NCBI RefSeq assembly: GCF_013394795.1
Contig: NZ_JABXYU010000001.1
Coordinates: 1,488,001-1,552,000, forward strand
Reading direction: 5' to 3'
DNA: 64,000 nucleotides
From: Leptotrichia sp. oral taxon 223
Lineage (GTDB): Bacteria; Fusobacteriota; Fusobacteriia; Fusobacteriales; Leptotrichiaceae
The notes under the pieces are model-generated. The model was given only the letters and a program-made list of their open reading frames with translations. It made no database searches and was not told the origin of the DNA. The position numbers were made by a program, and so were the translations under genes. Positions 30,954-48,711 of this stretch are shown piece by piece; within the stretch, counting starts at the first letter, position 1; every line of letters begins with the position of its first letter.

Positions 30954-32585
30954 TTACTGAACTTCGATTAATAGGGAATGGAAATTTTTGTAAATCACGT
31001 TTCCCGGTTTACTATTTTTAATTTTTTTTACAAATTTTCTTTCACAGTAGTCAACGGTAACTTTATTGCCTTTTTTGGCTTTAGAGTATTCGCAGGCAAG
31101 GTTTGCGGCGTGTGTCAGAACGTCATCAGGCACTTCCTGATTATTTCGTAGAATAAGGACGTGGCTTCCAGGAATGTCTTTTACGTGCATCCAGATGTCG
31201 TTGGGCTGGCCTTTGGAAAAAGATATTTCCTCATTTTCCTTGTTGTTCCTTCCAACAAAGATTTGAAAGCCTTTATAGTCAAATGACAGCAGTTCACGTT
31301 TTTTTGACTTGTTCAATTTTATTTTATTTTTTATTTTATTTCCGTTATTTGATAAGTTCAGCTCGTTTTCAATTTCCTCGATTCTAATAAAATCATTTTC
31401 CTTTTCAATAAACATTTTTATTTCCTCAAAATATCTTATTTCATTCTGAATGTCTAAAAATCTGGAATTTAAGGCTGAAATTGTACGTTTTCCCTTGTTA
31501 TACCTATTGTAATAAAAATTCAAATTATCATTTGGAGATAAAAGCGGATCCAGATTTATCGTAATTTCCTGATTATTGTAAAAATCAAAAGCTGTAATTT
31601 TTTTCATTCCATATTTTATCTGATGCATATTTGCCGCCAGAATATCCCCGATATTTTTATATTTTTCAAAGTTTTCATTTTTCTTCAAGTCAACTTTTAT
31701 ATTTTTCTCAATTTTTTTGAATTTTTTTATTTGTGAATCAACATATTTTAATAAATTTTTCTTTTTTTCGCTAATAACGTTGGAAGTAATAGTTGCTTTA
31801 AAATAGGTATTTAAGCCATCGTTTAAGGTTTCAAAATATTTTCTTCCATTTTCTAAACGTTTGTTTTCCTTTTGACTAAATTCGGAAAATTCATTGTAAG
31901 TTAGCACTTTCTGGATTTTTCCACGATTTAAGATTTCATACATTACTGGCTTATAGCTGGATAAATATTTTTTGAAAGTATCATAATCTTGTGAACACTC
32001 CAGTGCAAAAGCACGCCCCACACCTTCGATTTTTTCTATAAAAGTTTCAGTTTTAAATGGAAAATTTTCGGATTCCAGATAAAGTGGCGAAATCTTTTTT
32101 TCCTCAAATGGCAAAGTATATCTTGCACCTGTCATAATAACACGGTTCCCAACATCAATCGAAGCAAAATAAAGTGCAGAGAGGATTTTATCTTTGCTAG
32201 TCAAGAAAATATTGCTCGCTTTTCCCATAATTTCAATAATTAACGTATATTTTTCCACATCCCCAAACTGATTTAACTTTTCAAAGTCAAAATATACAAT
32301 CCTGTCAAAACCTTCCTGCCTAATATTTATCAAAATTGAATTTTGCAGATGCTTTTTTAATGACAATAGAAATTTTGACTGAAAATCAGTATTCGGATCC
32401 TTTTCGTCCTTTAAGTAAAAAATCGTTGAGTTGTCCTTTACTTGAAAAATTAAGTTATTCTTTCCAAAAAAAAGTGAAAATGAAACTCTGTCATATTGAA
32501 AAATTTTTGTCAATTTATACCGTAATATTTTTTCTTTTATCTCTTTTATCAAAAATGAAATTCCAATTCCATCTAAATAAAGCAT
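30954..32585 (-). CDS. rqcH: RqcH/NFACT-family ribosome quality control protein
   Basis: In other bacteria RqcH binds stalled 50S-peptidyl-tRNA and directs alanine tailing. The N-terminal NFACT-N domain begins MLYLDGIGISFLIKEIKEKIL. A long coiled-coil middle spans about 260-400. The C-terminal NFACT-R domain (about 440-543) has DIWMHVKDIPGSHVLILRN near 475. At 543 residues it is typical. The family is often annotated as fibronectin-binding protein FbpA, but no signal peptide is present, so the cytosolic RQC role is preferred. A TAAGGAGGGAAT-like site precedes the ATG. Confidence 0.88.
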   Translation of the reverse strand: MLYLDGIGISFLIKEIKEKILRYKLTKIFQYDRVSFSLFFGKNNLIFQVKDNSTIFYLKDEKDPNTDFQSKFLLSLKKHLQNSILINIRQEGFDRIVYFDFEKLNQFGDVEKYTLIIEIMGKASNIFLTSKDKILSALYFASIDVGNRVIMTGARYTLPFEEKKISPLYLESENFPFKTETFIEKIEGVGRAFALECSQDYDTFKKYLSSYKPVMYEILNRGKIQKVLTYNEFSEFSQKENKRLENGRKYFETLNDGLNTYFKATITSNVISEKKKNLLKYVDSQIKKFKKIEKNIKVDLKKNENFEKYKNIGDILAANMHQIKYGMKKITAFDFYNNQEITINLDPLLSPNDNLNFYYNRYNKGKRTISALNSRFLDIQNEIRYFEEIKMFIEKENDFIRIEEIENELNLSNNGNKIKNKIKLNKSKKRELLSFDYKGFQIFVGRNNKENEEISFSKGQPNDIWMHVKDIPGSHVLILRNNQEVPDDVLTHAANLACEYSKAKKGNKVTVDYCERKFVKKIKNSKPGNVIYKNFHSLLIEVQ

Positions 32586-32610: not shown

Positions 32611-32648
32611 TTATCAAAAAAATCACAATTAAACTAATAACTGTGATT
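32611..32648 (-). terminator. Terminator of Abi gene (minus strand)
   Basis: Read on the minus strand, AATCACA (32648-32642) pairs with TGTGATT (32627-32621) and is followed by a run of T. It overlaps the end of the Abi reading frame. Confidence 0.65.
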
Positions 32649-33559
32649 ATATCTTTAAATTTTTAATTGTTTCAAAATCTTTAAAACCTAATTTTTGAGC
32701 GTCTTCATCTGTTCTGTTACGACACAACTTTTTTAAACTTTTTCTAATGGCTCCACCTGGATATTTTAAATTAATTACAAAAACTAAAGATTCTAATATT
32801 AAAACTGATACTGCTATCCTATCTGATATTTTACCATTAATAAAATATAATTTGTTTTTAAATTCATCTAATATCTTGGGCTTTGTGGAAAATTTTATAT
32901 CTACAATATTTGAGTTATGAGCTGACAAGTTTCTAATTAAATTGATATTTTCTAACCAAGATAAATATATAATTCCAGATAAATTATGTTCTTTAGCTAT
33001 TTTATTCTGATATTTTTTATATAGTAGTTTATTTATATAAATCCAGTATTTCCCCAAATGTCAAAATATCTGTTACTAGCCATATTGGTATTTTATTGTG
33101 ATTTTGTTTATACATTTCGAGCAATTCGTTTTTACTATTTCCCAAACTTCTATCTATTCTTTTTTTAAAATCTTTTTCTTTAAATGCTCTGAAATGTCTA
33201 CAATATTCTGTTTTATCTACCCACTTATAAAAATCAAGGTATCCATAAGCTCCAAATTTTTCACCTATTAAATAAGAAAATTTAGTTTTTAATGAAATTT
33301 CGACTTTTTCAGTTAATCTTAATAAATTAATTCTTAAATTCTTATTTTCATAAAATCTAGTTAATATTTCATCAAAAGTAATGTCTTGTATATATTGTCC
33401 ATTTTTAAAATAAGGTAACGAGCATTCTTTTAATTTATAGTAATTTATAAATTGCAATACTTTTTCAGCTTTTTCTTCATCAGTGATAATCATTCCCCTA
33501 TCTTTAAAGAGTTTTACTTGTTCTTTAAAAGTCAGAAATTCATCTCTTGCCATAATCAT
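32647..33559 (-). pseudogene. Abi_2 (AbiD/AbiF-like) abortive-infection protein, split by a frameshift
   Basis: Two overlapping frames together form one Abi_2 protein of about 300 residues. The first (33559-33029) has the N-terminal [13 protein letters not shown] part and ends [18 protein letters not shown]. The second (from about 33031 to 32647) continues [18 protein letters not shown] and holds the family RNxxAH signature (LIRNLSAHNS), which resembles HEPN-type RNase motifs. Dropping one A from the AAA at 33032-33034 restores a continuous frame. The gene may be truly inactivated, phase-variable or mis-sequenced. It starts with AGGAGA then ATG at 33559, directly after a promoter and a small hairpin RNA. 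Confidence 0.8.
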
Positions 33560-33572
33560 TTTAAATTCTCCT

Positions 33573-33636
33573 AAAAAAAAGCCCTGCGTAGGTATACTAA
33601 CCTTGTATTATTTAAAATACTGCAGGGGGTTTGATA
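33573..33636 (-). ncRNA. Small structured RNA ahead of the Abi gene (abiF-motif-like candidate)
   Basis: From a predicted start near 33636 the minus strand reads into CCCTGCAGTA (about 33627-33618). This pairs with TACGCAGGG (33590-33582), followed by C and eight T, the form of an intrinsic terminator. An inner stem GTATT/AATAC competes or stacks. The RNA is about 64 nt and ends just before the ribosome site of the Abi gene. I recall a published abiF RNA motif located upstream of Abi_2 genes; whether this matches its covariance model was not tested. Confidence 0.6.
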
Positions 33637-33642
33637 TAATTA

Positions 33643-33671
33643 ATTTTACTCTATTTTTATAAAATTGTCAA
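33643..33671 (-). promoter_or_regulatory. Consensus promoter for the Abi small RNA
   Basis: On the minus strand TTGACA (33671-33666), exactly 17 bases, TAAAAT (33648-33643). It is among the best promoters in the window. Confidence 0.8.
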
Positions 33672-33774: not shown

Positions 33775-34437
33775 TTAAAGCGTATTTTTCCTCACCATAA
33801 TATTTTCCGCATCTTCAATATTCAACACTTTCTCATCCCCATCTACAAGCAAAGTTATCAAATATTTGTCAATATTCAGGATTTTTATAAGAGATTTTAT
33901 CATAACGCCTTTTTCATTTAAATATTTTCTGATCGCAACGCTTCCTTTTATTGAGGAAACCTGTACTAAATCATCTTTTTCAAAGTTTAGTATTGATTCA
34001 GGCTGAATGTCCTTTTTGACTTTATCCAGATTTTTTACGATTGTTTCAAAAACTTCGATGAATGTGTCCAGTTTTTTTTGTGGAATATTATCTGTAATTT
34101 TTTCAAGAATATTTGAGTGAAAATTTCCATGATAGTTTAATGCGACTTTTCCTTTTGGAGTCAGTTTTACAAAAACTTTACGTCTGTCAATATCCGACCG
34201 GGAGCGTTCCAGAAATTGCTTGTCAGTCAGCTTGTTTACGGCGACTGAGGCGGTTCCCATTGTAATGCCCAGTTTGTCAGATAGTTCATTCATTGTGATT
34301 TCATTTTCCCCAATCGCTTCAATAATATGAAGTTCAGATGTAGTCAGACATTTAATTACCTGATTTAAATTTATTTCTTCAATTTTATAATATGTTTTAT
34401 AGAATTTGTCTAATAGAGTTTCTATTTTTTCATACAT
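33775..34437 (-). CDS. MarR-type regulator with C-terminal FeoA-like domain
   Basis: A winged-helix DNA-binding domain covers about 10-140, with recognition region MNELSDKLGITMGTASVAVNKL and wing RSDIDRRKVFVKLTPKGK. A separate beta-rich C-terminal segment (about 150-220, DDLVQVSSIKGSVAIRKYLNEKG) looks like the FeoA/SH3 domain usually attached to DtxR-type metal regulators. 220 residues. The combination suggests metal-responsive control, but no iron-transport gene is adjacent. It is last in the PASTA-rsgA-rpe gene run, 66 bases after rpe. Confidence 0.78.
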   Translation of the reverse strand: MYEKIETLLDKFYKTYYKIEEINLNQVIKCLTTSELHIIEAIGENEITMNELSDKLGITMGTASVAVNKLTDKQFLERSRSDIDRRKVFVKLTPKGKVALNYHGNFHSNILEKITDNIPQKKLDTFIEVFETIVKNLDKVKKDIQPESILNFEKDDLVQVSSIKGSVAIRKYLNEKGVMIKSLIKILNIDKYLITLLVDGDEKVLNIEDAENIMVRKNTL

Positions 34438-47933: not shown

Positions 47934-48022
47934 GCCTTGGTGGCGAAATCGGTAGACGCACAGGACTTAAAATCCTGTGGGAAATTTATCCCGTGCCGGT
48001 TCAAGTCCGGCCCGAGGCACCA
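47934..48022 (+). tRNA. tRNA-Leu (TAA)
   Basis: Acceptor stem GCCTTGG/CCGAGGC plus A and encoded CCA. Anticodon stem CAGGA/TCCTG with loop CTTAAAA gives TAA. The long variable arm (GTGGGAAATTTATCCCGT) fits a class II leucine tRNA. Confidence 0.95.
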
Positions 48023-48038
48023 TAAAAAATCATATTAT

Positions 48039-48114
48039 GCGGGAGTAGCTCAGTTGGTAGAGCGTCAGCCTTCCAAGCTGAATGTCGCGAGTTCGACCCT
48101 CGTCTCCCGCTCCA
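48039..48114 (+). tRNA. tRNA-Gly (TCC)
   Basis: Acceptor GCGGGAG/CTCCCGC, discriminator T, encoded CCA. Anticodon loop CTTCCAA gives TCC. 76 nt. Confidence 0.95.
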
Positions 48115-48120
48115 AAATAT

Positions 48121-48196
48121 GAGCCATTAGCTCAGTCGGTAGAGCACTTGACTTTTAATCAAGGTGTCACTGGTTCGATTCCAGTATGGCTCACCA
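48121..48196 (+). tRNA. tRNA-Lys (TTT)
   Basis: Acceptor GAGCCAT/ATGGCTC, discriminator A, encoded CCA. Anticodon stem CTTGA/TCAAG with loop CTTTTAA gives TTT. Confidence 0.95.
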
Positions 48197-48212
48197 TTCA
48201 ATATAACCATAT

Positions 48213-48289
48213 GTGCCTGTAGCTCAGTTGGATAGAGCAACGGCCTTCTAAGCCGTGGGCCAGGAGTTCGAATCTCTTCAGGCACGCCA
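48213..48289 (+). tRNA. tRNA-Arg (TCT)
   Basis: Acceptor GTGCCTG/CAGGCAC, discriminator G, encoded CCA. Anticodon stem ACGGC/GCCGT with loop CTTCTAA gives TCT. Confidence 0.95.
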
Positions 48290-48292
48290 TAT

Positions 48293-48369
48293 GGATCCAT
48301 AGCTCAGCTGGTTAGAGCACTCGGCTCATAACCGAGCGGTCGCTGGTTCAAGTCCAGCTGGATCCACCA
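48293..48369 (+). tRNA. tRNA with CAT anticodon (Ile2 or elongator Met)
   Basis: Acceptor GGATCCA/TGGATCC, discriminator A, encoded CCA. Anticodon loop CTCATAA gives CAT. The initiator features (unpaired first base, three G-C pairs next to the anticodon loop) are absent. The T-arm and variable region GGTCGCTGGTTCAAGTCC look like isoleucine tRNA read with lysidine, but an elongator methionine tRNA cannot be excluded. Confidence 0.9.
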
Positions 48370-48382
48370 TTGAAAAACTTGT

Positions 48383-48457
48383 GCGGCCTTCGTCTAGTGG
48401 TTAGGACCTCGGGTTTTCATCCCGGTAACAGGGGTTCGATCCCCCTAGGCCGTACCA
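48383..48457 (+). tRNA. tRNA-Glu (TTC)
   Basis: Loop TTTTCAT in stem TCGGG/CCCGG gives TTC. D-arm TCGTCTAGTGG and GTAACAGGGG are typical of glutamate tRNA. Acceptor GCGGCCT/AGGCCGT begins with a G-U pair. Encoded CCA. Confidence 0.93.
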
Positions 48458-48538
48458 TTTATTTTTTTAGGACCATAATTTGAAATTGTGGTATTTTTTT
48501 TAAAAAATTTATAGTATTTAATATTTTAGTAAAGTTAT

Positions 48539-48625
48539 GGGTGGATGTCCGAACGGCTAAGGGACCGGTCTTGAAAACCGGCGAAATCGCAAGATGTCTG
48601 GGTTCGAATCCCAGTTCACCCGCCA
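48539..48625 (+). tRNA. tRNA-Ser (TGA)
   Basis: Acceptor GGGTGGA/TTCACCC, discriminator G, encoded CCA. Anticodon stem CCGGT/ACCGG with loop CTTGAAA gives TGA. Long class II variable arm. Confidence 0.95.
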
Positions 48626-48635
48626 TATATAGTAT

Positions 48636-48711
48636 GCCCAGATAGCTCAGTCGGTAGAGCAAGGGACTGAAAATCCCTGTGTCCGTGGTTCGATTCCGCG
48701 TCTGGGCACCA
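48636..48711 (+). tRNA. tRNA-Phe (GAA)
   Basis: Acceptor GCCCAGA/TCTGGGC, discriminator A, encoded CCA. Loop CTGAAAA in stem AGGGA/TCCCT gives GAA. Last of the array; a phage-integrase remnant lies downstream, so its 3' end is a plausible old attachment site. Confidence 0.95.

Follow-up and report, generated by a model that had tools for sequence, protein, structure and literature searches.

A covarying three-way-junction RNA upstream of an AbiF-like gene in Leptotrichia: a candidate antitoxin RNA class distinct from the Rfam abiF family

Among the closest described systems is RCd22/AbiF of C. difficile prophages (phi027 and phiC2), a proven toxin with an RNA antitoxin that acts both in cis, where it represses by termination, and in trans, where it neutralizes by binding (PMC12373285). 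In the complex formed by PbAbiF and AbiFr (PDB 8vz6), an RNA is bound to each protomer of the HEPN dimer (PMC12737573). The type III systems ToxIN, AbiQ, CptIN and TenpIN likewise carry an RNA antitoxin and a terminator in front of the toxin gene and share the logic of RNA excess, but their toxins have a different fold and their RNAs consist of tandem repeats (PMC12373285).

The window (the whole stretch of 64,000 nucleotides analysed here) comes from the chromosome of a Leptotrichia strain (G000). It contains a locus which resembles RCd22/AbiF in its succession of (i) a SigA-type promoter, (ii) a short structured RNA, (iii) a Rho-independent terminator, (iv) a Shine-Dalgarno (SD) sequence and (v) an Abi_2/AbiF HEPN gene (Table 1). 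The RNA gene and the terminator lie between the promoter and the toxin gene, which is also the layout of type III systems. The RNA of this locus matches none of the known antitoxin RNA families. It is a single unit, without the tandem repeats of the type III RNAs, and its outer stem serves as the predicted terminator, whereas in RCd22 the abiF (RF03085) motif occurs twice and the terminator is a separate element. A preliminary description of this DNA had recognized the arrangement of an RNA-antitoxin module; the order of the elements is indeed that of RCd22/AbiF, but the gene is broken, and a working pair is not present in this strain.

The promoter named in that description is present, and it agrees with the consensus in 11 of 12 letters, which makes it the joint best among 15 promoter-like sites located between positions 32500 and 34500. 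As 14.1 such sites are expected by chance, the number of sites alone is at chance level. Promoters recur, at a similar distance, 5′ of homologous genes: over 40 related loci the mean score is 10.35 of 12, compared with 7.6 in shuffled sequences, and most of these promoters are near consensus. The transcript is predicted to start near position 33636 and to end with the T run at 33573, which gives a length of approximately 64 nt. The ribosome site was found, as proposed, directly after this run of eight T, with the ATG of the Abi_2 ORF (33559) on its 3′ side.

Table 1. Features of the RNA-abiF locus and its borders (positions within the window)
Feature	Position	Strand	Basis or remark
-35 element TTGACA	33666..33671	-	most of 40 related loci have a near-consensus promoter at a comparable distance
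-10 element TAAAAT	33643..33648	-	spacer to -35 of 17 nt
Small structured RNA (leader AUAUCAA, three-way junction, U tract)	33573..33638	-	fold, covariance model, covariation
P1 5′ strand CCCTGC (outer stem, doubles as terminator stem)	33622..33627	-	fold, covariation
Inner hairpin 1, GTATT..AATAC	33605..33620	-	fold; compensatory changes in close relatives
Inner hairpin 2, AGGT..ACCT (CAGAUACGUUCUG-type in phage relatives)	33590..33603	-	fold; double changes in 4/4 pairs
P1 3′ strand GCAGGG	33582..33587	-	fold, covariation
Terminator U tract, eight T	33573..33580	-	sequence
Ribosome site AGGAG, first base adjoins U tract	33568..33572	-	sequence
abiF-like (Abi_2) gene, 5′ part, 176 codons up to frameshift	33029..33559	-	PF07751, 83.1 bits
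abiF-like gene, 3′ part, other frame, carries RNLSAH	32647..33057	-	PF07751, 26.6 bits
MarR-like regulator (name from sequence), upstream, left cassette border	33775..34437	-	empty site in two sister genomes
NFACT/fibronectin-binding-like gene (name from sequence), downstream, right cassette border	30954..32585	-	empty site in two sister genomes

The proposed pairing of CCCTGC with GCAGGG was found in the sequence, and this outer stem encloses two further hairpins, so that the RNA is predicted to form a three-way junction, the outer stem of which is at the same time the predicted terminator. The fold has an energy of -15.9 kcal/mol (z = -3.1), and 1 of 200 shuffled sequences folded as well. 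A simple terminator scan of the window gave no match at the 3′ end of the RNA, because the scan accepts plain loops only and this RNA is a three-way junction.

Relatives of the RNA were read 5′ of AbiF homologs (approximately 35% identity and above) in Fusobacteriota, in Lactococcus and Streptococcus phages and in Bacillota plasmids. They share a common plan, comprised of a leader ending in CAA, the outer stem, hairpin 1, hairpin 2 (CAGAUACGUUCUG in phages) and a T run. In an alignment of 21 distinct RNAs, made by sequence only, 11 pairs of the outer stem and hairpin 2 were tested. All 11 show changes on both sides, and 95.5% of the cells are paired; the covariation score is 0.607, compared with 0.247 for shuffled alignments (0 of 500 reach the observed value) and at most 0.182 for slid alignments. 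The covariance model built from this alignment, designated R1, assigns 64 bits to the window RNA, which belongs to the training set. In viral contigs, where the test loci were fetched by protein similarity only and some repeat training sequences, R1 matched directly 5′ of 63 of the 63 AbiF genes of the clade (at least 35% identity), while it gave no match at the same position 5′ of six distant AbiF loci. The hairpin, whose absence upstream of homologous Abi genes had been named in the preliminary description as evidence to the contrary, is therefore found before each of the 63. The covariation was also seen in 24 distinct held-out RNAs (0.468 versus 0.231; 10 of the 11 pairs), and the close relatives of the window RNA, orphan copies included, keep all three helices (99% paired). 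Because promoter and RNA recur 5′ of homologous genes with compensatory changes, the initial observation goes beyond chance, and these comparisons make it well supported that the element is a real structured RNA.

The Abi_2 gene with an RNxxAH motif was identified as described, except that it is not intact: a frame change in the region 33029-33057 divides it into two ORFs, each scoring above the cut-off of PF07751 (25.6), the second of which carries the motif. With its gene broken, the window copy retains an intact RNA gene beside what is only a relic of the toxin, and is not a working pair. Intact orthologs of 301 aa are encoded in two sister genomes, and in two other genomes the gene is broken differently. 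An intact ortholog is recognized by PADLOC as AbiD (171 bits), and the residues R210, N211, A214 and H215 of the motif are invariant in the protein alignment (A3). The AF2 model of the intact ortholog L011 has a pLDDT of 91.3; it is alignment-based and was used in place of a single-sequence prediction with a pLDDT of 38.8. Its only significant match in the PDB is 8vz6, the PbAbiF dimer with ncRNA (TM 0.76, E 1.8e-12), to which the protein is also related in sequence (E=5e-21). According to this model, the protein of the clade has the AbiF fold. A search for PbAbiF relatives in viral contigs yielded weak fragments only.

When 65 Abi_2 proteins are placed on a tree, those with an R1-positive RNA require 2 label changes, compared with 19.6 for shuffled labels; the two changes stem from a weak outlier, L048 (counted weakly as a member of the RNA class, at 20.8 bits), and from a lineage lacking the RNA. 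The AbiF of phage phiC2, which is nearly identical to the C. difficile protein studied by experiment (PMC12373285), belongs to another clade (32% identity over 221 aa) and is placed outside the R1 clade, its nearest rows including the fusobacterial protein L047. A parallel within the R1 clade itself is orf57 of the lactococcal prophage TP712, which is directly preceded by an RNA of the same class (L081); orf57 is intact and lies after the holin-lysin genes of a prophage, whereas the window locus is a chromosomal cassette with a broken gene. The lineage lacking the RNA (L042-L045, L050 and L057, in genomes G029-G032, G013 and G019) is a sister AbiF lineage with no promoter-RNA-terminator arrangement upstream. 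Its genes overlap an upstream nitroreductase-like gene or, immediately downstream of an ABC-F gene, encode AbiF with a GAF-like domain fused to its N-terminal side, and their RNxxAH motif is intact. This lineage looks like AbiF freed from the antitoxin RNA.

The RNA and abiF form an insert between the MarR-like and NFACT-like genes, a site at which two sister genomes have only approximately 25 nt. In five orthologous cassettes the RNA is 98.5-100% identical and the gene 93-99%. The window gene has a 98% identical counterpart in L. hongkongensis. Genomes that share approximately 93-99% identity in the cassette are 88-90% identical in the marR ends next to it, which speaks for horizontal exchange of the cassette. 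Selection on the RNA is not demonstrable within the five cassettes, because their divergence is too low. The window also carries a cluster of eight tRNA genes (47934-48708, plus strand).

A search of 98 Fusobacteriota genomes with R1 (E≤0.01) gave 22 matches. One of them (L122, E 0.007) was judged to be false, and 21 are credible. Nineteen of the credible matches precede an abiF gene, a broken copy or a stub: 11 stand before intact genes, six before broken ones (in the window genome, G002, G003, G011, G012 and G018) and two before short N-terminal stubs (G020 and G004). The other two, L125 (G001:C1:317342) and L119 (G070), have no abiF gene downstream. Orphan L119 retains a promoter-like sequence and an SD; in L125 the promoter has seemingly been lost. 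The RNA is thus kept in 10 of the 21 fusobacterial copies while the toxin is broken, reduced to a stub or absent; leaving aside the sister lineage that lacks the RNA, every intact abiF gene seen in the clade was accompanied by it. An RNA that survives its toxin, but not the converse, fits what a toxin-antitoxin pair predicts, although the RNAs retained beside broken genes could also be neutral relics. Degenerate variants with one hairpin (L058-L061) were observed before truncated or decayed abiF genes, some of them at loci other than that of the window.

The preliminary description had suggested that the RNA may be a fusobacterial member of the abiF RNA motif, i.e. an ordinary, if divergent, representative of RF03085 (membership threshold: covariance model score of at least 37 bits). 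Its position before the same protein family and its outer stem around an inner hairpin are features shared with that motif, and L047, a fusobacterial AbiF with another RNA, gives the one subthreshold match of the abiF model (29.9 bits). The scan proposed in the description nevertheless argues strongly against membership: the abiF model does not hit the window, even at E≤10, nor does it hit any of the further three-way-junction loci that were searched or any of 33 genomes of the family (0/33). As a positive control, the same model recovers the two abiF repeats of phage phiC2 with 37.6 and 19.5 bits, a region in which R1 gives no hit. RF03085 has one 3-bp inner hairpin, a 6-nt bulge and 37 positions, whereas the window RNA has two inner hairpins, a short closing junction, a conserved hairpin 2 and leader, and a terminator merged with the motif; moreover, it accompanies a different protein clade. 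Membership in RF03085 was rejected on these grounds, and we consider it most improbable. Further Rfam matches near the RNA (snoRNA, CRISPR repeat and S15 leader, E 3-8) are attributable to chance. Since the abiF model finds the phiC2 repeats and R1 does not, two RNA classes appear to pair with two groups of AbiF proteins. In comparison with RF03085, the window RNA represents a distinct class with an AbiF clade of its own.

The RNA might also be a cis-acting leader only, that is, a constitutive or regulated terminator (attenuator) which keeps the expression of a toxic gene low and has no function in trans. Directly in front of the SD, the outer stem and U tract form a predicted intrinsic terminator; termination is also how RCd22 exerts its repression in cis (PMC12373285), and control of transcription in cis alone would likewise conserve promoter and terminator. 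A plain terminator, however, needs neither a conserved leader of the AUCAA type, nor two inner hairpins with compensatory changes, nor the near-invariant CAGAUACGUUCUG hairpin, and the RNA class tracks the protein clade rather than the host. Leader-peptide attenuation was rejected, as the 66-nt sequence contains no ATG, GTG or TTG. We therefore regard a role confined to cis as unlikely. There is an appreciable possibility that the window RNA is a decaying leftover which, with its toxin dead, no longer serves a function in this strain: the gene is frameshifted, orphan and stub copies exist elsewhere (L119, L125, L114 and L123), and so do the degenerate one-hairpin variants. Against this, neither the RNA nor its promoter, terminator or SD is damaged in the window locus, and all four are nearly identical with their counterparts in intact modules. 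Such a loss of function concerns the present use of the RNA and not its identity, and is compatible with its explanation as an antitoxin.

The element is likely to be the gene for the RNA component of an AbiF-type module (an RNA antitoxin with a HEPN-RNase toxin), in a form that represents a distinct RNA class, and by analogy with the described systems it probably works like the AbiF RNA antitoxin. The strong promoter would drive the synthesis of the three-way-junction RNA, the outer stem of which would act at once as the RNA scaffold and as the intrinsic terminator. Most transcripts would end at this terminator and build up as antitoxin RNA, while readthrough by a minority would allow the AbiF toxin to be made; the excess of RNA would then bind and silence AbiF, in the way that RCd22 silences the C. 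difficile AbiF. Transcription, the ratio of termination to readthrough, RNA-protein binding and neutralization are what we infer for this class from that analogy. The cassette has been acquired between two chromosomal genes, and in this strain a frameshift has broken the toxin gene, leaving an intact antitoxin-like RNA gene before a toxin relic. As the toxin is dead, the window RNA would be either a remnant or an anti-addiction element. A more speculative form of the antitoxin reading, which we put forward with considerable reserve, is that one helix is both toxin ligand and terminator, that AbiF autoregulates the readthrough, and that the RNA gene, once the toxin is lost, is kept as an anti-addiction element directed against incoming AbiF-bearing phages and plasmids. 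With ligand and terminator in a single helix, free AbiF could target its own RNA during transcription and so set the level of readthrough.

The window strain encodes three more Abi_2 proteins: L001 and L002, whose genes start approximately 2 kb apart on a 26-kb contig (C2), and L003 on the chromosome. Each of the three genes has a promoter of its own and is accompanied by a structured RNA of a different kind, and L002 contains an in-frame TGA. A recurrent RNA (GAUCGU...) with a separate terminator accompanies L003, L009, L014, L016-L018, L023, L091, L093 and L101, which belong to another Abi_2 clade; those of the GAUCGU... RNAs that were scanned had no match to an Rfam family. In addition, four fusobacterial Abi_2 genes (L049, L052, L053 and L054) are preceded by another compact RNA, CACACCUCU..GUGGCCCAUG, with a T run at its end. 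Leptotrichiaceae seem to contain several more AbiF-linked RNA types that are uncatalogued.

The genus Leptotrichia is a classic source of Cas13a. AbiF with its RNA has been proposed as the ancestor of CRISPR-Cas13 (PMC12165695, PMC12737573). Because its relatives precede one kind of toxin gene, the RNA described here is marked as an uncatalogued (non-Rfam) variety of antitoxin. To our knowledge, Rfam contains one AbiF RNA family only. A second, structurally distinct and strongly covarying class with its own protein clade would show that AbiF antitoxin RNAs have diversified together with their proteins. This class is common in streptococcal and lactococcal prophages; R1 provides a ready search model for it, and the lactococcal prophage TP712 is among the tractable systems. 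The RNAs retained beside dead toxins make the idea of an anti-addiction function testable.
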